Source of the DNA: Halorussus rarus
GTDB lineage: Archaea; Halobacteriota; Halobacteria; Halobacteriales; Haladaptataceae
Reading direction: 5' to 3'
NCBI RefSeq assembly: GCF_003369835.1
Contig: NZ_QPMJ01000002.1
Span: forward strand, 1,364,001 to 1,428,000
DNA: 64,000 nt
Shown here: one piece after another, positions 33,427 through 63,507 of the stretch
Position numbering within the stretch: position 1 is the stretch's first letter
Layout of the letters: the number at the start of each line of letters is the position of its first letter
The notes under the pieces: generated by a model
The model's input: the letters and a program-made list of their open reading frames with translations, nothing else
What the model was told of the DNA's origin: nothing
Database searches by the model: none
Program-made: the position numbers and the translations under genes

Positions 33427-34104
33427 TCAGGCGTCGCCGGCGACCTCGCGCTCGAACCGCTCGGCGAACTCGGCGACGTAGGCGGCGCGCTCCTCGGCGA
33501 GTCGGCGGCCCGCCTCGGTGTACATCCGGTCGGGGAGCGCGAGCAGTTTCTTGTGGAGGTGGTTGAACTGGGTCGCGCCGGCAGCGGTGTCGTCGGCCTC
33601 GGGCGGCAGGTCGGGGTCGTGCAGCGGGCTCCCGTGCTCGCCGCCGTAGGAGAAGCAGCGGGCGACCCCGACCGCGCCGAGCGCGTCGAGGTTGTCGGCG
33701 TCGCAGAGGAGTTCGGCCTCGCGAGTTCCGGGTTCGACGTCGTTCGAGAAGCGGTGGGCCCGGATGCAGTGCTGCACGGCGTCGATGGTCTCGGCGCCGG
33801 CGCCGAGGTCCGCGAGGATGTCGTCGGCTTCCTCGGCGCCCCACTCGGCGTGGTCGTCGATCTCGCCGCGGTCCTCCTTCGGCCGGCCGACGTCGTGGAG
33901 CCACACCGCCGCGAACAGCACGTCCTCGTCGACGTCGTACTCGGCGGCGAGCGTCTCGGCCAGGCTGGCCACGCGCTCGACGTGATGCCAGTCGTGGGCC
34001 GGCGATACGCCGTCAGAGCTTCGCTCTGACGAGCCTCGTCTCTCTGCGTTCGACGAGACTTCGTCGAAGTAAGTCTCGGCGCGCTTGCGGACCTCGTCTC
34101 TCAT
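33427..34104 (-). CDS. HD-domain hydrolase with in-frame hairpin insert
   Basis: A 225-residue HD phosphohydrolase. The metal/phosphate motifs are SPAHDWHHVERV (H...H), AAVWLHDVGRP (HD), DDHAEWGAEEAD, IRAHRFSND and LLCDADNLDALGAVG (Asp). Members act on nucleotides. Between the N-terminal helix (RKRAETYFDE) and SPAHDW is a ~18-residue Ser/Arg-rich stretch encoded by two back-to-back hairpins (34012-34068), absent from the family as I know it. The frame is kept. It is convergent with the surface-protein gene. Confidence 0.87.
   Translation of the reverse strand: MRDEVRKRAETYFDEVSSNAERRGSSERSSDGVSPAHDWHHVERVASLAETLAAEYDVDEDVLFAAVWLHDVGRPKEDRGEIDDHAEWGAEEADDILADLGAGAETIDAVQHCIRAHRFSNDVEPGTREAELLCDADNLDALGAVGVARCFSYGGEHGSPLHDPDLPPEADDTAAGATQFNHLHKKLLALPDRMYTEAGRRLAEERAAYVAEFAERFEREVAGDA
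34012..34068. repeat. Two tandem hairpins inside the HD gene
   Basis: gtcagagc-ttc-gctctgac (34012-34030, eight-base arms, three-base loop) and ttcgacga-gact-tcgtcgaa (34049-34068, eight-base arms, four-base loop), both perfect. They encode the extra Ser/Arg-rich stretch of the HD protein. Confidence 0.8.
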
Positions 34105-49462: not shown

Positions 49463-50851
49463 ATGGTACTCGACGACCTCGGAAACTCCCTCCGCGACTC
49501 CCTCGGGAAACTCAGCGGGCAGTCCCGCGTTACCGAGGAGGACGTGGAGGACATCGTCAAGGAGATCCAGCGGTCGCTCCTCCAGGCCGACGTCGAAGTC
49601 AGCCTGGTGATGGACCTCTCGGACTCCATCAAGGAGCGCGCTCTGGAGGAGGAGTCGCCCGGCGGGACCTCCGCCCGGGACCACGTCCTCCGCATCGTCT
49701 ACGAGGAGATGGTGGGGCTGGTCGGCGACAGCACCGACATCCCGCTCGAGGAGCAGACCATCCTGCTCGCCGGCCTCCAGGGGTCGGGGAAGACGACCAC
49801 CGCGGCCAAGATGGCGTGGTGGTTCTCGAAGAAGGGGCTGCGGCCGGCCATCGTCCAGACCGACACCTTCCGGCCCGGCGCGTACGACCAGGCCAAGGAG
49901 ATGGCCGGGCGCGCCGAGGTCGACTTCTACGGCGACCCCGACGAGGAGGACCCCGTCAAGATCGCCCGCGACGGCCTCGAAGCTACCAGCGACGCCGACG
50001 TCCACATCGTCGACACCGCGGGTCGCCACGCGCTCGAGGACGACCTCATCGACGAGATCGAGGACATCGAGCGCGCGGTCGACCCCGACCGCAACCTGCT
50101 CGTGCTCGACGCCGCCATCGGCCAGGGTGCGAAGGACCAGGCCCGCCAGTTCGACGACTCCATCGGCATCGAGGGGGTCATCGTCACGAAGCTCGACGGG
50201 ACCGCGAAAGGTGGCGGGGCGCTCACGGCGGTCAACGAGACCGACTCCTCGATCGCGTTCCTGGGCACCGGTGAGGAGGTCAAGAACATCGAGCGGTTCG
50301 AGCCCTCCGGGTTCATCTCGCGGCTGCTCGGGATGGGCGACCTCAAGCAGCTCACCGAGCGCGTCGAGCGCGCGATGGAGGAGACCCAGGAGGAGGACGA
50401 GGACTGGGACCCCGAGGACATGCTCAAGGGGGATTTCACCCTGAAGGACATGCGCCGCCAGATGCAGGCGATGAACAACATGGGGCCGCTCGACCAGGTG
50501 ATGGACATGATTCCGGGGATGGGCGGCGGCCTGATGGACGAACTCCCGGACGACGCCATGGACGTGACCCAGGACCGGATGCGGTCGTTCGAGGTCATCA
50601 TGGACTCGATGACCGAGATGGAGCTCGAGAACCCCCGCGCCATCGGCGCGAGCCAGGTCGAGCGCATCGCGAAGGGCAGCGGCAAGCCCGAGGAGCGCGT
50701 CCGCGAGCTGCTCGAACAGCACAAGATGATGGCCCAGACGCTCAAGCAGTTCCAGGGGATGGGCCAGGGCAACATGGAGCGCATGATGAAGAAGATGGAG
50801 GGCGGCGGCGGTGGCGGCGGCGGAATGGGCGGGATGGGCCCGTTCGGATAG
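49463..50851 (+). CDS. srp54: Signal recognition particle 54 kDa protein
   Basis: A 462-residue SRP54/Ffh. The N domain is [20 protein letters not shown]. The GTPase motifs are [18 protein letters not shown] (G1), [10 protein letters not shown] (G2), [14 protein letters not shown] (G3), [11 protein letters not shown] (G4) and [14 protein letters not shown] (G5). The Met-rich M domain follows ([40 protein letters not shown] binds 7S RNA), then a Gly/Met tail. It binds signal sequences. A CTTTAAC box lies ~28 bases before the ATG, so it is transcribed apart from ftsY. A hairpin repeat starts four bases after its stop. Confidence 0.97.
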
Positions 50852-50855
50852 AGCC

Positions 50856-51113
50856 TTTTGCTGCGTCCTCGTGAGCGCAGCGAACGAGGGTCGGGACGGC
50901 GAAGCCGTCCCGGCGGTCGGGCGCATGAACGCGCCCTGCCTGGCAAAACGTTCATGAAAACACCGGGAGAGCTTCGCTCTCCCGAGCCTGCGTTCACTCC
51001 GTTCACGCAGACACGGCGTCACCCCTCCCTCACGCCCTCACGTCGTTCGGGCGTTCAGTCGAGGGTTCCTTGGTCCGCTCGCTCCTCGCTACGTTCGTCG
51101 CTCGCGGTAGAAC
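50856..51113 (+). repeat. Hairpin-rich dispersed repeat, copy A
   Basis: About 258 bases running from TTTTGCTGCGTCCTCG, just after the srp54 stop, to TTCGTCGCTCGCGGTAGAAC. It contains a nine-base stem cgggacggc-gaa-gccgtcccg (50892-50912), a six-base stem gggcgc-atgaac-gcgccc, a conserved aaaacgttcatgaaaa block and a second nine-base stem cgggagagc-ttc-gctctcccg (50964-50984). It is collinear with copy B at 56286-56454 apart from extra material in the middle. The region to 51205 contains no gene. Confidence 0.75.
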
Positions 51114-51205
51114 TGCTGGTGCGTCGGTGGAGGACAGCACATTCGCTCGCAGCCCCACCACCCCGACACGCGCCTTTTTTGACGGGGAGCGCAATGGCCC
51201 GGTAG

Positions 51206-51781
51206 ATGCCCGTCCGCGACGTCGCCGCGCAGGCCTATCGGGAAGCCCTCCCCGCGCTGGCCGCGAGCGTGGTCGGCGGCCTGTTCGCCGGCGTCGTCCT
51301 CGGCGGGATGCGAGCGGAACTGCGGGCCGTGCCGGGGCTGCTCGTGCTGGTGCCCGCGCTGCTGGCGACCCGGGGGAACGTCTACGGGTCGCTGGGCGCG
51401 CGGCTCTCGACCGGGCTCCACCAGGGGCTGGTCGAGCCCGCGTTCGAGTTCGACGACCGGGTGGCGTCGGCGGTCGCGGCCGCGCTCGGCAACGGCATCC
51501 TGGCCAGCCTGTTCGCGTCGGTCGCGGCGTTCCTGACGCTCGGCGCGCTCGGCGAGCCGGTCGCGCCGCTGGCGACGCTCGTGGCCGTCGCGTTGGTCGC
51601 GGGGCTGCTGTCGGGGGTCGCGCTGACCGTCGCGGTCGTCTCGGTCGTGTTCGCGGGGTTCCGTCGGGGGTACAACCCCGACACGCTGGTCGGCCCGCTG
51701 GTGACGACGACCGGCGACGTGTTCGGGGTCGCCTTCCTCCTGCTCGCGGTCCGGTTCGTGCTCGCGCTGGGAGGGATGTAG
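51206..51781 (+). CDS. MgtE/SLC41-type transporter, first half
   Basis: A 191-residue membrane protein with five hydrophobic segments. It corresponds to one MgtE integral-membrane repeat: LVLVPALLATRGNVYGSLGA in helix 2 and VGPLVTTTGDVFGVAFLLLA in the last helix. The N-terminal CBS/N domains of bacterial MgtE are absent. The next gene encodes the matching second half, with no bases between stop and GTG. The two presumably form a heterodimeric divalent-cation channel. Confidence 0.88.
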   Translation: MPVRDVAAQAYREALPALAASVVGGLFAGVVLGGMRAELRAVPGLLVLVPALLATRGNVYGSLGARLSTGLHQGLVEPAFEFDDRVASAVAAALGNGILASLFASVAAFLTLGALGEPVAPLATLVAVALVAGLLSGVALTVAVVSVVFAGFRRGYNPDTLVGPLVTTTGDVFGVAFLLLAVRFVLALGGM

Positions 51782-52342
51782 GTGCAGACCGAGTGGTCCG
51801 TCGAGGCCATCACTCGGGCCACGCTGCCGGTCCTGCTCGCGCTGACCGTGGTCGAGATCGGGAGCGGGCTGGTGCTGGGGTCGTTCGAGGCGACCCTGCT
51901 GACCTACCCCTCGCTGCTGACGCTGGTCCCCGTCACCATCGGGACCGCCGGGAATCTGGGGAGCGTGCTCGCCGCGCGGCTCTCGACCGCGTTCCACCTC
52001 GGGACGCTCTCGTTCGACCCGACCGACGACCAGCTCGCGGGCAACGCGGTTGCGACCGTCGCGCTGGCGCTCACCGTCTTCCCGGTTGTCGGTGCGGGCG
52101 CGTGGGCGCTGTCGCTCGCGCTCGGGAGCGCCCGACTCCCCCTGTTCACGGTGGTCGCGGTGGCGCTGACAAGCGGCGCGGCGCTCGCGGTGGTCGCCGT
52201 CGCGGTGACGCTGGCGGCGACCTACGCGGCCTACCGCTTCGAACTCGACCCCGACGACGTGGTGATTCCGGTCGTGACCAACGTCTGCGACGTGCTGGGC
52301 GTGGTCGTGCTGTTCGCGGTGGTGCAGGTGCTGGTCTCCTGA
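51782..52342 (+). CDS. MgtE/SLC41-type transporter, second half
   Basis: A 186-residue membrane protein starting at a GTG directly after the previous TAG. Five helices contain LTLVPVTIGTAGNLGSVLAA and DDVVIPVVTNVCDVLGVVVL, paralogous to the first half (VPALLATRGN / VTTTGDVFG). The conserved Asp in the last helix corresponds to the ion-pathway acidic residue of MgtE. Substrate likely Mg2+ or another divalent cation. Confidence 0.88.
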   Translation: MQTEWSVEAITRATLPVLLALTVVEIGSGLVLGSFEATLLTYPSLLTLVPVTIGTAGNLGSVLAARLSTAFHLGTLSFDPTDDQLAGNAVATVALALTVFPVVGAGAWALSLALGSARLPLFTVVAVALTSGAALAVVAVAVTLAATYAAYRFELDPDDVVIPVVTNVCDVLGVVVLFAVVQVLVS

Positions 52343-52373
52343 GCGGCCGGGTGCGGGCCCGGGAAGAAGGAGA

Positions 52374-53669
52374 TCAGGTTACGCCGCCGCCGCGCCCCGC
52401 GAACTGCTCGAACTCCTCGTTCTCGACGACCCGCCGCAACTGCTCGACGACCTCCCAGACGTCCTCGTAGCCCGTGTAGAGGGGCGACGGGCAGATGCGA
52501 ACCACGTTCGGCGGTCGGAAGTCGACGACCACGCCCCGATCCTTGAGTGCCTCGCTGACCCGGTACGCCTCGGGGTGCTCGACCGCGACGTGGCCGCCCC
52601 GGCGGTCAGGGTCGCGGGGCGTCCCGACCTCGTAGTCGGGCAGGCGCTCGTCCACGAGGAATATCAGGTACTCGGTGAGCGAGACGGACTTCTCGCGGAC
52701 CGCCCCGATGCCGGTCGCGAGAGTTCCATCACCGGCGTCCTCGAACACGTCGAGCGACCCCGCGAGCGGGGCGGCCGAGAGTATCGGAATCGTGCCGATT
52801 TGGTAGGCGCCCGCCGAGTCGGCGGGGATGTACGTCGGGTTCATCTCGAACTGGGTCTCCTTCTCGTGGCCCCACCAGCCCGCGAGCGCGGGCCGGGCGC
52901 CGAAGTGGTCCTCGCTGACGTAGAGGCCGGCGATGGCGCCCGGGCCGGCGTTGAGGTACTTGTAGCTGCACCAGACCGCGAAGTCGACGCCGAGGGCCGA
53001 GAGGTCGTGCGGGACGACCCCGACCGAGTGGGCGAGGTCGAACCCCGCGAGGGCGTCGTGCTCGTGGGCGGCCACGGTGATCGCCTCGACGTCGAGCAGC
53101 TGGCCGCTCCGGTAGAGCACCGAGGGGAGGAAGACGACGGCGGTGTCGTCGTCGATTGCGTCCACGACGTCCGCGGTCTCGACGGTCCGACCGTCGCGGC
53201 TCTCGACCACGGTCAGCGCCTCGTCGGGGTCCGCACCGCGCTGGCGCAGTTGGGCGCGGACCGCGTAGTGGTCGGTCGGGAAGTCGAGTTCGTCCACGAC
53301 GATTTTCGTCCCCTCCGCCCGCTCGTAGAACGTCCCGACCAGCGTGTGGATGTTGACGGTCGTGGAGTTGGCGACGACCACCTCCTCCTCGTTCGCGCCG
53401 ACCAGGGGCGCGAGTCGGTCGCCCAGCCGCTCGCCGTAGTAGAACCACGGCGGGTCGGCGTCGGTCCACCCCCGGATGGCGAGGTCGCGCCACTCCTCGA
53501 CCGCCCGGTCGAGCGCGTCTTCGGCGTCTTCCGACAGCAGGCCGAGCGAGTTGCCGTCGACGTACCACCCGTCGTCGGGGTCGTAGAACCGGTCGGCGAG
53601 GTGGCCGAGGGGGTCGGCCTCGTCGCGCCGGGCGGCGTAGTCGGCCCCGAGTTCGAAGTCGGCGTCCAT
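52374..53669 (-). CDS. kynU: Kynureninase
   Basis: A 431-residue PLP enzyme: YVDGNSLGLLSEDAEDALDR, VVVANSTTVNIHTLVGTFYE, FPTDHYAVRAQL, FDLAHSVGVVPHDLSALGVD (PLP Asp/His), the Schiff-base Lys in VWCSYKYLNAGPGAIAGLYV, and GWWGHEKETQFEM. These are kynureninase signatures; the enzyme splits kynurenine or 3-hydroxykynurenine to (hydroxy)anthranilate and alanine. The ATG at 53669 is chosen; the frame continues upstream only as antisense to the hydrolase gene. Confidence 0.92.
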   Translation of the reverse strand: MDADFELGADYAARRDEADPLGHLADRFYDPDDGWYVDGNSLGLLSEDAEDALDRAVEEWRDLAIRGWTDADPPWFYYGERLGDRLAPLVGANEEEVVVANSTTVNIHTLVGTFYERAEGTKIVVDELDFPTDHYAVRAQLRQRGADPDEALTVVESRDGRTVETADVVDAIDDDTAVVFLPSVLYRSGQLLDVEAITVAAHEHDALAGFDLAHSVGVVPHDLSALGVDFAVWCSYKYLNAGPGAIAGLYVSEDHFGARPALAGWWGHEKETQFEMNPTYIPADSAGAYQIGTIPILSAAPLAGSLDVFEDAGDGTLATGIGAVREKSVSLTEYLIFLVDERLPDYEVGTPRDPDRRGGHVAVEHPEAYRVSEALKDRGVVVDFRPPNVVRICPSPLYTGYEDVWEVVEQLRRVVENEEFEQFAGRGGGVT

Positions 53670-53783
53670 GCGCGAGTCGAACGGCGGAACCGGGTTAGTA
53701 GTTCGGTCTCGCAGCGGTCGGCCGGTCGGTCGCCTCGACGTCGGCCACCCACGCCTTTCTCGCTCGCCTCCCAACTCGAACCC

Positions 53784-54758
53784 ATGACCGAACCCCTGCG
53801 AACCGAACTGGACCCCGAAGTCGCCGCGGTCGTCGCGGACATCGAAGCCGAGGGCGTCCCCGAATGGTCGTCCCTGTCCGTCGAGTCGGCCCGGCGCATC
53901 GAGGACGGAGTGTTCTCGGGCAGCGACCCGCCCGAGGTCGGGTTCGTCCGCAATCTCTCGATCCCCGGCCCGGACGCGTCGGCGGCGGAAACCGGTCCGG
54001 CGAGCGAGATTCCGATTCGGGTCTACCGCCACGCCGACCTCGACGGCGCCGAACCCGCGCCGGTCCTCGTCTACTACCACGGCGGCGGGTGGGTGCTGGG
54101 CACGCTCGACTCCATCGACGGGGTGTGTCGCCGCCTCGCGCGCCGCGGAGAGTGCGTCGTCGTGTCGGTGGACTACCGGCTCGCGCCCGAGCACCCCTTC
54201 CCCGCCGCGGTAGACGACGCCTCCGCCGCCCTCCGGTGGGTCGCAGAGCACGCCGACGCGTTCGGCGGCGACCCCGGCCGACTCGCGGTCGGCGGCACGA
54301 GCGCGGGCGGGAACCTGGCCGCGGTGACGGCGCTGCGGGCGAGAGAGCTCGAAGACCTCGTGTTGTCCCGTCAGCTCCTCCTCTACCCCATCACCGACCA
54401 CGCGTTCGACACCGACTCGTACGCCGAGAACGGCGACGGCCCGCTGCTGACCGAGGCCGACATGCGGTGGTTCTGGGACCACTACCTGCGGAGCGCGGTC
54501 GACGGCGCGAACCCCTACGCGTCGCCGCTCCGGACGCCGGACCTCTCGGGGCTCCCGCCCGCGACCGTGTCGACCTGCGGGTTCGACCCCCTGCGAGACG
54601 AGGGCGTCGCGTACGCCGAGCGACTCGCGGACGCCGGAGTCGAGGTTCGCCACGACCACCACCCCGACATGCCCCACGGCTTCCTGAGCACGAGCGAGGA
54701 CGTCGCGGCCGCGGACGAGGCACTGGACGAACTCGGCGCCGAGCTGCGGTCGCTGTAG
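53784..54758 (+). CDS. Alpha/beta hydrolase, HSL-type esterase
   Basis: A 324-residue hydrolase of the hormone-sensitive lipase group: the oxyanion motif VLVYYHGGGWVLGTLDS, VSVDYRLAPEHPFPAAVDDA, the nucleophile elbow GGTSAGGNLAAV (Ser), DPLRDEGVAYAERL (Asp) and MPHGFLS (His). All catalytic residues are present. It is divergent from kynU across 114 bases, so an activity such as kynurenine formamidase is possible; the HGGGW motif is shared by both enzyme groups. Confidence 0.9.
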   Translation: MTEPLRTELDPEVAAVVADIEAEGVPEWSSLSVESARRIEDGVFSGSDPPEVGFVRNLSIPGPDASAAETGPASEIPIRVYRHADLDGAEPAPVLVYYHGGGWVLGTLDSIDGVCRRLARRGECVVVSVDYRLAPEHPFPAAVDDASAALRWVAEHADAFGGDPGRLAVGGTSAGGNLAAVTALRARELEDLVLSRQLLLYPITDHAFDTDSYAENGDGPLLTEADMRWFWDHYLRSAVDGANPYASPLRTPDLSGLPPATVSTCGFDPLRDEGVAYAERLADAGVEVRHDHHPDMPHGFLSTSEDVAAADEALDELGAELRSL

Positions 54759-54814
54759 CGGGTGGCGACGGTTGAGCGCGGCGGACACAGAAGAAGCGAC
54801 GCGGTCCGGGCGCG

Positions 54815-55234
54815 CTACTCGAAGTCGTCGGGCGTGACCGGTTGGCCCTCCTCGGTCGGCGGGGCGACGTGGTCGACGAACTCCTCGACGCCGGGCTCCT
54901 CGACCCGGACCCGGACGTGGATGTCGCCGAGCTCGTCGGGGTTGCCCACCGCGAAGTTGACGACGCCCTCGAAGGCGGCCTGCTTCTTCAGGTCGAACGC
55001 GAGGGTGTTCCCGCGCCGGCTCCCGAAGAACTCCCCGCGGGCGGTGTCGAGTATCTCCTGGCGGTGGAGCAGTTCCGAGAAGTGGTCGAGCGAGTGGGCC
55101 TCGGCGGCGATCTCGCCGTGCTGGTCCGCGACGTCGGCGCCGGGGAAGATGTTCGTGACGGCGGTCGCGACTCGGTCGGCGATCTCGGTGTCGGCGACGG
55201 GGGCCGTGATCTGGACGTCGATGCTGTATATCAT
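54815..55234 (-). CDS. UPF0201-type RNA-binding domain protein
   Basis: A 139-residue protein: IYSIDVQITAPVADTEIADR, AVTNIFPGADVA, LDHFSELLHRQEILDTARGE, FFGSRRGNTLAFDLKKQAAF, GDIHVRVRVEEPGVEEFVDH. This is the archaeal COG1325/UPF0201 family (RNA-binding-like L5 fold). It lies 54 bases downstream of the UPF0200 gene on the same strand, an arrangement conserved in archaea. Function unproven. Confidence 0.88.
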   Translation of the reverse strand: MIYSIDVQITAPVADTEIADRVATAVTNIFPGADVADQHGEIAAEAHSLDHFSELLHRQEILDTARGEFFGSRRGNTLAFDLKKQAAFEGVVNFAVGNPDELGDIHVRVRVEEPGVEEFVDHVAPPTEEGQPVTPDDFE

Positions 55235-55288
55235 CGGTGTCGGGTGAATCGTCGGGTGTTCATCGGTTCTGGTCGGAGCGTCGGGCGA

Positions 55289-55867
55289 TCACGCTTCGTT
55301 GGCGGGTCGCTCGCCGTCGAGCGCCTCGACGCCCTCGGTCAGCAGGGCGCGGATCTGCTCGTGGAACGCCTCCAGCGTGCCGGTGTTGTCGATGCGGACC
55401 TCGGCGCGCGCGATGGCCTCGTCCATGCCGAAGCCGCGCTCGCGCTCGTCGCGCTCGCGCAGCGACTCGCCGTCGTCGGTGTTGTCCCGGCCGCGGGACT
55501 CGACGCGGTCGGCCCGGACCTCGAACGGCGCCTCGATGCTCACCAGCGTGAACGCGTCGCCGAACGCCTCCTCGAAGCGCTCGACCTCGACGCCCGCCCG
55601 GATGCCGTCGACGAGCACGGCGTCGCTTTCCTCTAGGGCCTCCTCGACGACCGGCAGCGAGCGCTGGGCGATGGCGTCGGGACCGTTCTCCTCCCGGAGC
55701 GCGCCGGCGATCTCGCCGTGGTGCTCGGCCGGGTCGAGCCCCCGGTCGCGGCACTCCCGGCGGATGACGTCGCCCATGGTGACGACGGGAATGGCGAGGT
55801 CCTCGGCCACGGTCGCGGCCTCGCCCTTCCCGCTCCCCGGCAGGCCGACGGTTCCGATAACTCTCAT
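55289..55867 (-). CDS. UPF0200-type nucleotide kinase-like ATPase
   Basis: A 192-residue P-loop protein: RVIGTVGLPGSGKGEAATVA (Walker A), VVTMGDVIRRECRDRGLDPA, AVLVDGIRAGVEVERFEEAF and SRGRDNTDDGESLRERDERE. It is related to dephospho-CoA and adenylate kinases (COG0237/UPF0200), but archaeal dephospho-CoA kinase activity has been assigned to a different family, so the substrate is uncertain. It is followed by its usual partner UPF0201. Confidence 0.9.
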   Translation of the reverse strand: MRVIGTVGLPGSGKGEAATVAEDLAIPVVTMGDVIRRECRDRGLDPAEHHGEIAGALREENGPDAIAQRSLPVVEEALEESDAVLVDGIRAGVEVERFEEAFGDAFTLVSIEAPFEVRADRVESRGRDNTDDGESLRERDERERGFGMDEAIARAEVRIDNTGTLEAFHEQIRALLTEGVEALDGERPANEA

Positions 55868-55999
55868 TGGGTTTCGATAGTGGTGAGTGGTGCATAAGCG
55901 CTGTGTTCCGGGCGTACGCCCAGCGGAACCGTCGTCTCCCGCGTCCAGCCGGGAGAAATCCTAAGGTCTTTTGTCGAGGCCGTCCGAACGAAGCGGTGA

Positions 56000-56154
56000 G
56001 GGCACGTAGCTCAGTCTGGATAGAGCGTCGGACTTCTATCTCGGTCGGTGGCTGCTCGCGGTTTCACCGCTCGCGCTGGCGAGGCGCGTCGCGCCTCGCG
56101 TCTCCGGTCGGGGAAGACATCCGACGGTCGTGGGTTCAAATCCCATCGTGCCCG
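56000..56154 (+). tRNA. tRNA-Arg (TCT anticodon), intron-containing
   Basis: Acceptor GGGCACG (56000-56006) pairs with CGTGCCC (56147-56153), discriminator G at 56154, no encoded CCA. D arm GCTC...GAGC, anticodon stem TCGGA/TCCGA, loop CT-TCT-A plus A after splicing, T arm GTGGG-TTCAAAT-CCCAT. Exons are 56000-56038 and 56119-56154, giving a 75-base tRNA; the intron lies at the canonical 37/38 position. TCT reads AGA/AGG codons, rare in this GC-rich genome. Confidence 0.95.
56039..56118 (+). other. 80-base archaeal tRNA intron
   Basis: The junctions form a perfect bulge-helix-bulge: bulge TAT, four-base helix CTTC/GAAG and bulge ACA. It is enclosed by the anticodon stem on one side and a nine-pair intron helix (CTCGGTCGG with CCGGTCGGG, including G-U pairs) on the other. 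Cleavage after the second base of each bulge (TA|T and AC|A) gives the exons above. The interior holds a hairpin gcgaggcg-cgtcg-cgcctcgc at 56080-56100. Confidence 0.9.
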
Positions 56155-56155
56155 T
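56139..56155 (+). repeat. tRNA 3'-end direct repeat, left copy
   Basis: AATCCCATCGTGCCCGT at the 3' end of tRNA-Arg is repeated exactly at 56264-56280, 125 bases downstream, an attachment-site-like arrangement. Confidence 0.75.
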
Positions 56156-56199
56156 GCAACGAGGAGCGCCGGAGGCGCGACGAGTGAACCGGCGCGAAA

Positions 56200-56211
56200 G
56201 GGGATTTGAAC
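56200..56211 (-). repeat. Inverted T-arm fragment
   Basis: Between the two tRNA 3'-end copies lies ggggatttgaac, of which 11 bases are the exact reverse complement of the T-arm segment gttcaaatccc of the same tRNA. It is flanked by hairpins gcgcc-gga-ggcgc (~56166-56178) and ctcgcc-gga-ggcgag (56227-56241). Confidence 0.6.
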
Positions 56212-56263
56212 TACGGAAGAGGCAGTCTCGCCGGAGGCGAGGAAGCGTCTTCAGGTGGTTCAG

Positions 56264-56280
56264 AATCCCATCGTGCCCGT
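56264..56280 (+). repeat. tRNA 3'-end direct repeat, right copy
   Basis: Exact 17-base copy of 56139-56155, without the rest of a tRNA. It directly adjoins repeat copy B. Confidence 0.75.
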
Positions 56281-56285
56281 CGACC

Positions 56286-56454
56286 TTTTACCGCGTCCTC
56301 GCGAGCCCAGCGAGCGAGGGCTCGGGAGAATCGAATTCTCCCGGCGGTCGCGCCCCGAGAGGCGCTCCCTCGTAAAACGTCGATGAAAAGCCTGCGCTCT
56401 TCCCTTCGGTCGTCGCTTGGCCCGCTCGCTCACAGCCGTTCGCTCGCGGTAAAA
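56286..56454 (+). repeat. Hairpin-rich dispersed repeat, copy B, with terminal inverted repeats
   Basis: 169 bases bounded by TTTTACCGCG (56286-56295) and its exact reverse complement CGCGGTAAAA (56445-56454). Inside is a nine-base stem cgggagaat-cga-attctcccg (56323-56343), a gcgcc/ggcgc stem and an aaaacgtcgatgaaaa block, in the same order as copy A. No protein is encoded. The gap from the tRNA to the next gene (56155-56493) holds only repeats. Confidence 0.75.
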
Positions 56455-62297: not shown

Positions 62298-62302
62298 GCG
62301 CG

Positions 62303-62407
62303 CACCTTTTCTCTCGCTCGCATCGGAAGACGCGTTGCGTCTTCCGAGCCTTGCCTCGCTCCGCTCGGCAAGACTGCGCTCGCTCGGAAAAGCTGCACCA
62401 AAAGGTG
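62303..62407. mobile_element. MITE-like 105-base element
   Basis: Bounded by CACCTTTT (62303-62310) and the exact inverse AAAAGGTG (62400-62407). Inside is a perfect 11-base stem tcggaagacgc-gtt-gcgtcttccga (62323-62347), plus a cttgcc/ggcaag stem. It sits between the two copies of the aminopeptidase 3' end, starting five bases after the intact gene's stop. No transposase is encoded. A further hairpin ttcgctcg-aagt-cgagcgaa is at 62221-62240. Calling it mobile is inference. Confidence 0.5.
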
Positions 62408-62412
62408 GACGG

Positions 62413-63507
62413 TCAGCCCTCGAAGCCGTCCTCGAACCGGAACGTCCCGTCGCGCTGGACGACCTCGCCGTCGACCTCGATGTACGACTCGTCGCTCATG
62501 TCGACGATCATGTCGACGTGGACCGCGCTCTGGTTGCCCTCCTCGCCCTCCGGCAGGCACTCGTCGTAGGCCCGGCCGACCGCGAGGTGGACGGTGTCGC
62601 CCATCTTCTCGTCGAACAGCATGTTGTAGGTGAACCGGTCGATGTCGCGGTTCATCCCGATGCCGAGCTCGCCGAGCCGGCGCGCGCCCTCGTCGGTGTT
62701 CAGCACCTCGGTCAGCACCGCCTCGTTCTTGCTGGCGGCGTGGTCGACGACCTCGCCGTCCTCGAACGTCAGGGCGGCGTCCTCGACCTCGCGGCCCTGG
62801 TGGATGAGCGGCTTGTCGAACAGGACTTCGCCCTCCACGGAGTCGGCGACCGGCGCGGTGAACACCTCGCCGCCGGGGAGGTTGTTCTTGGCGTGGTCGT
62901 TGACCGTCGACATCCCCTCGACGCTCATCCGGAGGTCGGTCGTGTCGCCCGAGACGATGCGGACCTCCTCGCCCGCGTCGAGGATGTCGACCATCGCCTG
63001 CTGGTGGTCCTTCTGTGCGGCCCAGTCCTTGGTGACGGCGCCGTAGACGAACTCCTCGTACTCGACCGTGCTCATCTCGGCGTTCTGGGCGTTCGCGGGC
63101 GCGGGGAACTGGGTCAGCACCCACGTCGTGTCGAGGATCTCCTCCTGGATGGGCATGTAGGCCGTCTGGAACGCCGCCAGGGTCTCGCTCGCGACCGCGC
63201 TCATGTCGGCGACGTTGTCGTGGGCCCGGACGTGGATCCAGACGTCGGCGGCCTCGGCCAGCGCGAGTTCGTGGTCGGCCACGTCGAGGTCGTCGGCGTC
63301 GACCGCCCGCAGGAACGTCGCGCGGGTCTCGTCGCGCCGGCCGGAGACGTGGAACGGGAACGCGCCGCGCTCGCCGACGACCTCGCAGAGCGCGAGCGTC
63401 AGCTCCTCGGCGGTGGGCGGCGCGCTGACCACGACGTTGTCGCCGGCCTCGACTTCGGTGGAGTGGTCGACGACGATCTCGGCGTGCTCTCTGACTCGGG
63501 GGTCCAT
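62413..63507 (-). CDS. M29-family aminopeptidase
   Basis: A 364-residue protein with the thermophilic metalloprotease (AmpS/PepS, M29) pattern: [29 protein letters not shown]-like [40 protein letters not shown] (metal-site Glu), [60 protein letters not shown] and [20 protein letters not shown] (His, Asp ligands). It removes N-terminal residues in the cytoplasm. Its last 15 codons are duplicated downstream. Divergent from the threonine aldolase gene. Confidence 0.92.

Follow-up and report, generated by a model that had tools for sequence, protein, structure and literature searches.

A two-hairpin module nested in gene-end hairpin elements of Halorussus rarus and dispersed across haloarchaea: a candidate mobile palindrome

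The 64,000-nucleotide (nt) stretch of the Halorussus rarus genome analysed here (contig NZ_QPMJ01000002.1, positions 1,364,001 to 1,428,000; hereafter the window) contains two related repeats, copy A (50856-51113) behind the srp54 gene and copy B (56286-56454) downstream of an intron-bearing tRNA gene. A first-pass annotation had presented them as two copies of one unit. The two do align, with 75.7% identity over the first 105 nt (E 2e-11, blastn within the window) and alignable right ends, and copy A does begin with TTTT four bases past the srp54 stop codon. Instead of one unit, however, A and B are mosaics of two nested units, an older base hairpin element and an inserted module, which is present once in B and twice in A, one of the two inverted; this reading rests on some thirty additional copies read from the same genome. 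What had been taken for the main stem of copy A is hairpin 2 of its first module, and the second, inverted module had been left unpaired with the first. Scored against R1, a covariance model built from 57 module copies, the window holds five modules above 50 bits (Table 1), of which one lies in frame in a gene whose product carries a Pfam HD domain (E 1e-15).

Table 1. Positions, counted from the first base of the window, of the repeats, their parts and the neighbouring genes (ORF, open reading frame)
Feature	Position	Strand	Basis or remark
srp54 gene	49463..50851	+	Stop TAG 50849-50851; ORF list and sequence
Copy A, base hairpin element	50856..50948	+	TTTTGC 50856-50861 pairs with GCAAAA 50943-50948
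Copy A, inner hairpin of base element	50919-50924 / 50931-50936	+	GGGCGC / GCGCCC; sequence
Copy A, module 1	50864..50915	+	52 nt, one base short between hairpins; 60.8 bits (R1)
Copy A, direct repeats of module 1	50863-50865 and 50913-50915	+	GCG; empty orthologous site in G024
Copy A, module 2, inverted	50961..51013	-	73.9 bits (R1); zero-mismatch pattern match; empty in G024
Copy A, direct repeats of module 2	50961-50963 and 51012-51014		CAC; sequence
Copy A, right-end hairpin CCGCTCGCTC..GCTCGCGG	51075..51107	+	Type common to B and other copies
tRNA gene with intron, upstream of copy B	56000..56154	+	Rfam RF00005
Copy B, base hairpin element	56280..56383	+	TCGACcTTTTAC 56280-56291 pairs with GTAAAAcGTCGA 56372-56383
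Copy B, inner hairpin of base element	56350-56354 / 56361-56365	+	GCGCC / GGCGC; sequence
Copy B, module	56294..56346	+	66.4 bits (R1); empty orthologous site in G147
Copy B, direct repeats of module	56293-56295 and 56344-56346	+	GCG; sequence
Copy B, right-end hairpin CCGCTCGCTC..TCGCTCGCGG	56422..56450	+	Sequence
In-frame module in HD-domain protein gene (33427-34104, -)	34008..34060	-	61.4 bits; ..TYFDEVSSNAERRGSSERSSDGVSPAHDWHH..
Degenerate module in third hairpin element CACCTTTT..AAAAGGTG	62321..62375	-	53.2 bits (R1)

The module is matched over 53 nt and reads YGTC, hairpin 1, GGCTC, hairpin 2, GGYG. As the inner pair of hairpin 1 alternates between G-C and A-U, we read this hairpin as a 5-base-pair (bp) stem, a GA/GA mismatch step, 2 bp and a 3-nt loop, while hairpin 2, the stem first noticed, has 8 bp and a 3-nt loop. 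Both GNA loops and tandem GA steps are known for their unusual stability, and both strands of the module are computed to fold well, as DNA and as RNA. The hairpin 1 loop GARCGNAGYGA also recurs in copies recovered without imposing it; the YGTC at the 5' end was partly imposed by the search pattern. In three variants (L044:19217-19275, L050:5516-5575 and L243:6380-6438) hairpin 2 carries the GAGCGAAGCGA-type loop that is usually hairpin 1's, as though loops could be swapped as units.

Module copies number about 100 in the H. rarus genome. In a 400-kb sample of it, also used for the gene-end scan described below, the tags with any paired arms between them gave 8 hits of identical or nearly identical length, against 0, 0, 2 and 1 for four permuted-tag controls, and the sequence pattern matched 38 times in the whole genome against once for the reversed control. 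At E<=0.01, R1 finds 107 matches in this genome and 30-147 in 17 congeners, where E-values are rough and weak matches may be chance; modules of the exact geometry number 5-33 per Halorussus genome. Across a sample of the class the pattern is found in 90 of 242 genomes and 37 of 73 genera. An exact-pattern scan of 84,980 species returned at least 120 stretches, and the 80 matches listed, from which H. rarus records were excluded, are all haloarchaeal, one being labelled only Euryarchaeota; they include Halorussus, Haloarcula, Halosimplex, Halococcus, Natrinema, Natronorubrum, Haladaptatus, Halorhabdus and metagenome-assembled genomes (MAGs) of Halobacteria. Viral contigs gave no match to the module, and a virus origin was dropped on that ground. 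Tandem pairs of identical or nearly identical modules some 100-300 nt apart occur in L242, L264 and L275, pointing to local duplication.

From the stems cgggacggc/gccgtcccg in A and cgggagaat/attctcccg in B, both of which are present and paired, the first-pass annotation had proposed a dispersed repeat whose stem arms change together, a claim open to defeat had no further copies turned up or had the arms varied independently. The proposal is borne out genome-wide, and the arms stay paired across the class. Among 86 class-wide modules all five pairs of the hairpin 1 stem form in 69 and all eight pairs of hairpin 2 in 60; exchanging arms at random between copies lowers these counts to 9.4 and 8.8. 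The 5' arms come in 36 and 39 distinct forms respectively. Nothing in the search pattern forced this pairing, since the arms stood as N; what it did fix were the GA..GA loop letters and the tags. In a second set of 57 modules (56 distinct, from named genomes) 94.4% of cells are paired, both-sided changes occur at 14 of 15 pairs, and the covariation score is 0.652, compared with 0.212 for shuffled arms and at most 0.135 for slid structures. Covariation of the module stems is very strong. Pairing has been kept, then, as was supposed, but paired change by itself does not prove a function that preserves the fold.

The module fold is flanked by a direct repeat (GYG) whose two copies lie 51 nt apart, and the net insertion is 51 nt, made up of 48 nt and one copy of a 3-bp direct repeat. 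The free Y letter of the repeat agrees in 70 of 86 and 61 of 83 copies. Insertion is at GYG-like sites in either orientation, and base elements that lack a module have a single GCG or CAC where the repeat would lie. At the srp54 locus the congener G024 has the base element and neither module; at the tRNA locus G147 has the base element without a module and G024 has an inverted module elsewhere in the element. In the NAD kinase gene the sequence WRD-GEVLV (or close) runs uninterrupted in 16 congeners and is split by the insert in H. rarus and in G245; the G245 copy is old, and a large part of its hairpin 2 is gone. That one and the same locus is filled in some congeners and empty in others implies that the module moves, or moved after these species diverged.

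An insertion of 51 nt, a multiple of three, allows modules to lie within genes without shifting the reading frame. The claim that no protein is encoded holds for A and B but fails for the module family: all 17 sense intragenic modules examined (10 class-wide, 7 from H. rarus) use a single frame, encoding ..G-V-S-x-S-x-A-x-G-G-S-S.., which of the six frames is the richest in Gly/Ser and the poorest in Lys/Arg. Judged from these sequences, selection at the level of the peptide likely explains the single frame. The host proteins are unrelated and include a tRNA synthetase, the CPSase large subunit, phosphoglycerate mutase, NAD kinase, XPB helicase, HemD, a ScpA-like protein, Hsp20, beta-CASP and HD-domain proteins. 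The majority of module copies are intergenic. The beta-CASP nuclease genes of two haloarchaeal MAGs (L209 and L223) have modules after the motif DTLKLH, which suggests an old shared insertion or a preferred site. Histidine-kinase genes (L014, L018, L023, L024 and L025, in C5, C4 and C1 of the H. rarus genome) contain repeats coding EHGSTSPRSQAREDAVEHG beside the N-box motif; these resemble only the hairpin 1 half, together with a palindrome of native N-box codons, and were excluded from the intragenic counts.

We consider it fairly probable that the module is a non-autonomous, structure-recognised mobile palindrome, an archaeal analogue of the Rickettsia palindromic elements (RPEs) and of the CGTC-tagged repetitive extragenic palindromes (REPs). 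The data establish the family and its geometry, the covarying stems, the direct repeats with their filled and empty sites, the nesting in the base element and the in-frame insertions in unrelated proteins; a mobilising enzyme and a keeper of stem pairing are inferred. The element would travel as folded single-stranded DNA, recognised by a putative enzyme through the shape of the module plus its fixed unpaired letters. Stem letters would drift while pairing persists, because, we propose, a copy has to fold in order to be mobilised again. In A and B the module is carried within a base element that starts at the T-tract just past a gene and that probably serves as a bidirectional transcription terminator. 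A more specific version, which we put forward tentatively, is that the element is inherited by shape: its stem letters are free, while the double-hairpin fold and a handful of unpaired letters are all that is transmitted. This would imply that haloarchaea possess a mobilising machinery other than a Y1 transposase, one that recognises single-stranded DNA (or RNA) in its folded state and creates a 3-bp duplication, and whose activity has on repeated occasions given core haloarchaeal proteins Gly/Ser-rich linkers of 17 residues.

Several points weigh against this interpretation. The G letters of the direct repeat were imposed by the search pattern, which leaves only the Y letter and the empty sites as free evidence; no insertion was seen between near-identical strains, congeners differing by about 10% or more at srp54; and the intragenic sample is small (11 class-wide, 8 from H. 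rarus). Furthermore, no mobilising enzyme was found. The Y1_Tnp domain is absent from the H. rarus genome and also from the module-carrying congeners G162, G024 and G147, by which mobilisation of the RAYT/IS200 kind (RAYT, REP-associated tyrosine transposase) is rejected; a Y1/RAYT transposase is thus not needed for many copies to be present.

The principal competing explanation is a functional RNA, that is, a 3'-end structure (terminator, stabiliser of the 3' untranslated region (3'-UTR) or small RNA) selected at each site and spread by duplication, with compensatory changes preserving each local structure. In its favour are several features of the base element. When uninserted, this element reads stop codon, 3-9 nt, CTTTT-NN-TGC-GG..GC-rich hairpin..CC-YTK-NN-AAAA-(G/C)-NNNN-ATGAAAA, and its core is followed by further palindromes and then by a right-end hairpin of the CCGCTCGCTC..GCTCGCGG kind. 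It starts 3-9 nt past a stop codon in 36 of 49 copies read (12 of 17 in H. rarus), and its T-tract is of the kind that serves as a termination signal in Haloferax (PMC7237163). In the 400-kb sample CTTTT stands at +2 to +9 for 12 genes, 9 of which have a base or sister hairpin repeat next (manual reading). The outer stem is not confined to TTTT/AAAA and also takes in the 3-4 bases that follow the stop codon, with partners such as CGAC with GTCG or GCTCG, GAAC/GTTC, GGAC/GCTCC, CCAC/GCTGG and TGAAA/TTTCA; over 38 base copies 149 cells are paired, where shuffling gives a mean of 111 and a maximum of 125. H. rarus and G147 moreover differ at the tRNA locus by a paired G-C to A-T change in this stem, and the computed RNA folding is strong.

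As the keeper of module structure, a terminator RNA is weakened by the finding that modules lie in either orientation within one element and inside coding genes. Pairing within genes is about equal to that between genes (4.5/5 against 4.8/5 for hairpin 1 and 7.3/8 against 7.4/8 for hairpin 2), which fits a constraint tied to mobility over a role in the 3'-UTR. The base element is itself missing after srp54 in the majority of congeners and is dispensable there; its exact pattern is found in 21 of 242 genomes and 9 of 73 genera of the class sample, with differing inner hairpins. Around A and B, Rfam 15 (gathering score or E<=1) matched the tRNA alone, with one sub-threshold match at chance level elsewhere, so that a known RNA family was rejected for the repeats. 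We regard an RNA function as unlikely to account for the repeats as a whole, and as more plausible for the base element than for the module.

Other observations touch the base element and its surroundings. Copy B departs from the usual placement in that its base element starts at a stretch resembling a tRNA 3' end (56258-56279), which lies downstream of the tRNA gene (whole in Rfam and called tRNA-Ala by ARAGORN), is present in congeners too and looks like a partial duplication. The window also has, at 62300-62413, a third hairpin element close to a stop codon, unmentioned previously, which starts directly past the stop of the gene at 62413-63507 (minus strand). A second stop-proximal hairpin family, CCTTTTTTCTTCGTCGGGTGTCC..GGGCACC..CTCGAAAAAA, shares both the architecture and the right-end hairpin of the base element; its sites are L034 (in C1 of the H. 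rarus genome), L037 and the L042 region, together with the gene ends at offsets 34962, 132870, 157790 and 239933 of the 400-kb sample.

Paired arms could also be a mutational by-product of passive repetitive DNA, one arm of a hairpin being copied onto the other by template switching during replication or repair, with no selection involved. Arms that change together in intergenic and intragenic copies alike agree with this, as does an outer stem that matches the sequence beside the stop codon as if copied from it, and the paired change at the tRNA locus is compatible with template correction as with RNA function. Against it, the unpaired GTC, GA..GA, GGCTC and GGYG persist even in copies whose detection did not require every one of these letters, which argues that something is recognised, and the old G245 NAD kinase copy has gone uncorrected; we find this explanation improbable. 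Finally, that A or B in its entirety is a classical miniature inverted-repeat transposable element (MITE), delimited by terminal inverted repeats of 10 bp and dependent on a transposase supplied in trans, is very improbable: the inverted ends of B are exact (TTTTACCGCG 56286-56295 and CGCGGTAAAA 56446-56455, the right end lying one base further than annotated) and the base element is dispersed, but other copies begin TTTTGCTGCG or TTTTCCAGCG and finish GCGGTGGA, GCGGTTGA, GCGGTACA and so on, without matching ends, the left end is tied to stop codons, and apart from its hairpins the module has no inverted ends.

A mobile palindrome of this kind would be of interest for three reasons. Palindromic protein-coding insertions are known in Rickettsia and some REP-rich bacteria, and no archaeal description was found in the literature searched. 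The fixed geometry, presence or absence among congeners and class-wide spread make the question of the mobiliser testable in culturable haloarchaea. Strong covariation in stems is usually taken as the mark of a functional RNA, yet it can arise in a mobile DNA repeat, even within genes, which calls for caution. The module family was undescribed in the literature on haloarchaeal REP- or RPE-like elements that was covered, although subscription papers lay mostly outside that coverage and novelty is therefore unproven; the main text of a 2025 survey of bacterial and archaeal REPs does not mention haloarchaea (PMC12306157).

Among known systems, the CGTC-tagged REPs are short dispersed palindromes with an unpaired CGTC/TGTC tag and stems that differ between copies; they lie mostly downstream of genes and sometimes within them, no dedicated transposase is known for them, and they have a single 8-9 bp stem, a 4-5 nt loop and a CCA-like tail and occur mainly in alpha-Proteobacteria (Di Nocera et al. 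2013, PMC3733652). The module shares the unpaired YGTC beside a stem, yet has two stems (5+2 and 8 bp) in fixed register, 3-nt loops, a GGCTC spacer, a GGYG end, a 3-bp direct repeat and haloarchaeal hosts. Like the RPEs it is a palindromic in-frame insert in unrelated housekeeping genes, whereas those are about 150 bp long and rickettsial (PMC10969869) and the module is 51 nt net, haloarchaeal and mostly intergenic. It works like both and is assigned to neither class, because the single-stem and tail features of the one and the size and host of the other fail. The RAYT-mobilised GTAG REPs are hairpin repeats thought to move as single-stranded DNA, as we propose for the module, which lacks the GTAG tag and occurs in H. 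rarus, G162, G024 and G147 without Y1_Tnp. A 3-bp direct repeat would fit a MITE, while inverted ends other than the hairpins are lacking; the search for a parent transposon covered Y1_Tnp. The base element resembles the haloarchaeal T-stretch terminators (Berkemer et al. 2020, PMC7237163) in its T-tract near gene ends, and hairpins can terminate; unlike those, it is a dispersed repeat, which is not so described there, and its hairpin follows the T-tract and pairs with it. The nearest haloarchaeal analogues are the small mobile repeats (SMRs) and PATEs of Haloquadratum (Dyall-Smith et al. 2011, PMC3119063), which are likewise transposase-less, nest in mobile elements and are enigmatic in their mobilisation. 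SMRs end in inverted repeats, PATEs are derivatives of IS605-type ends with near-terminal palindromes, and neither duplicates its target, whereas the module has a 3-bp direct repeat and matching empty sites.

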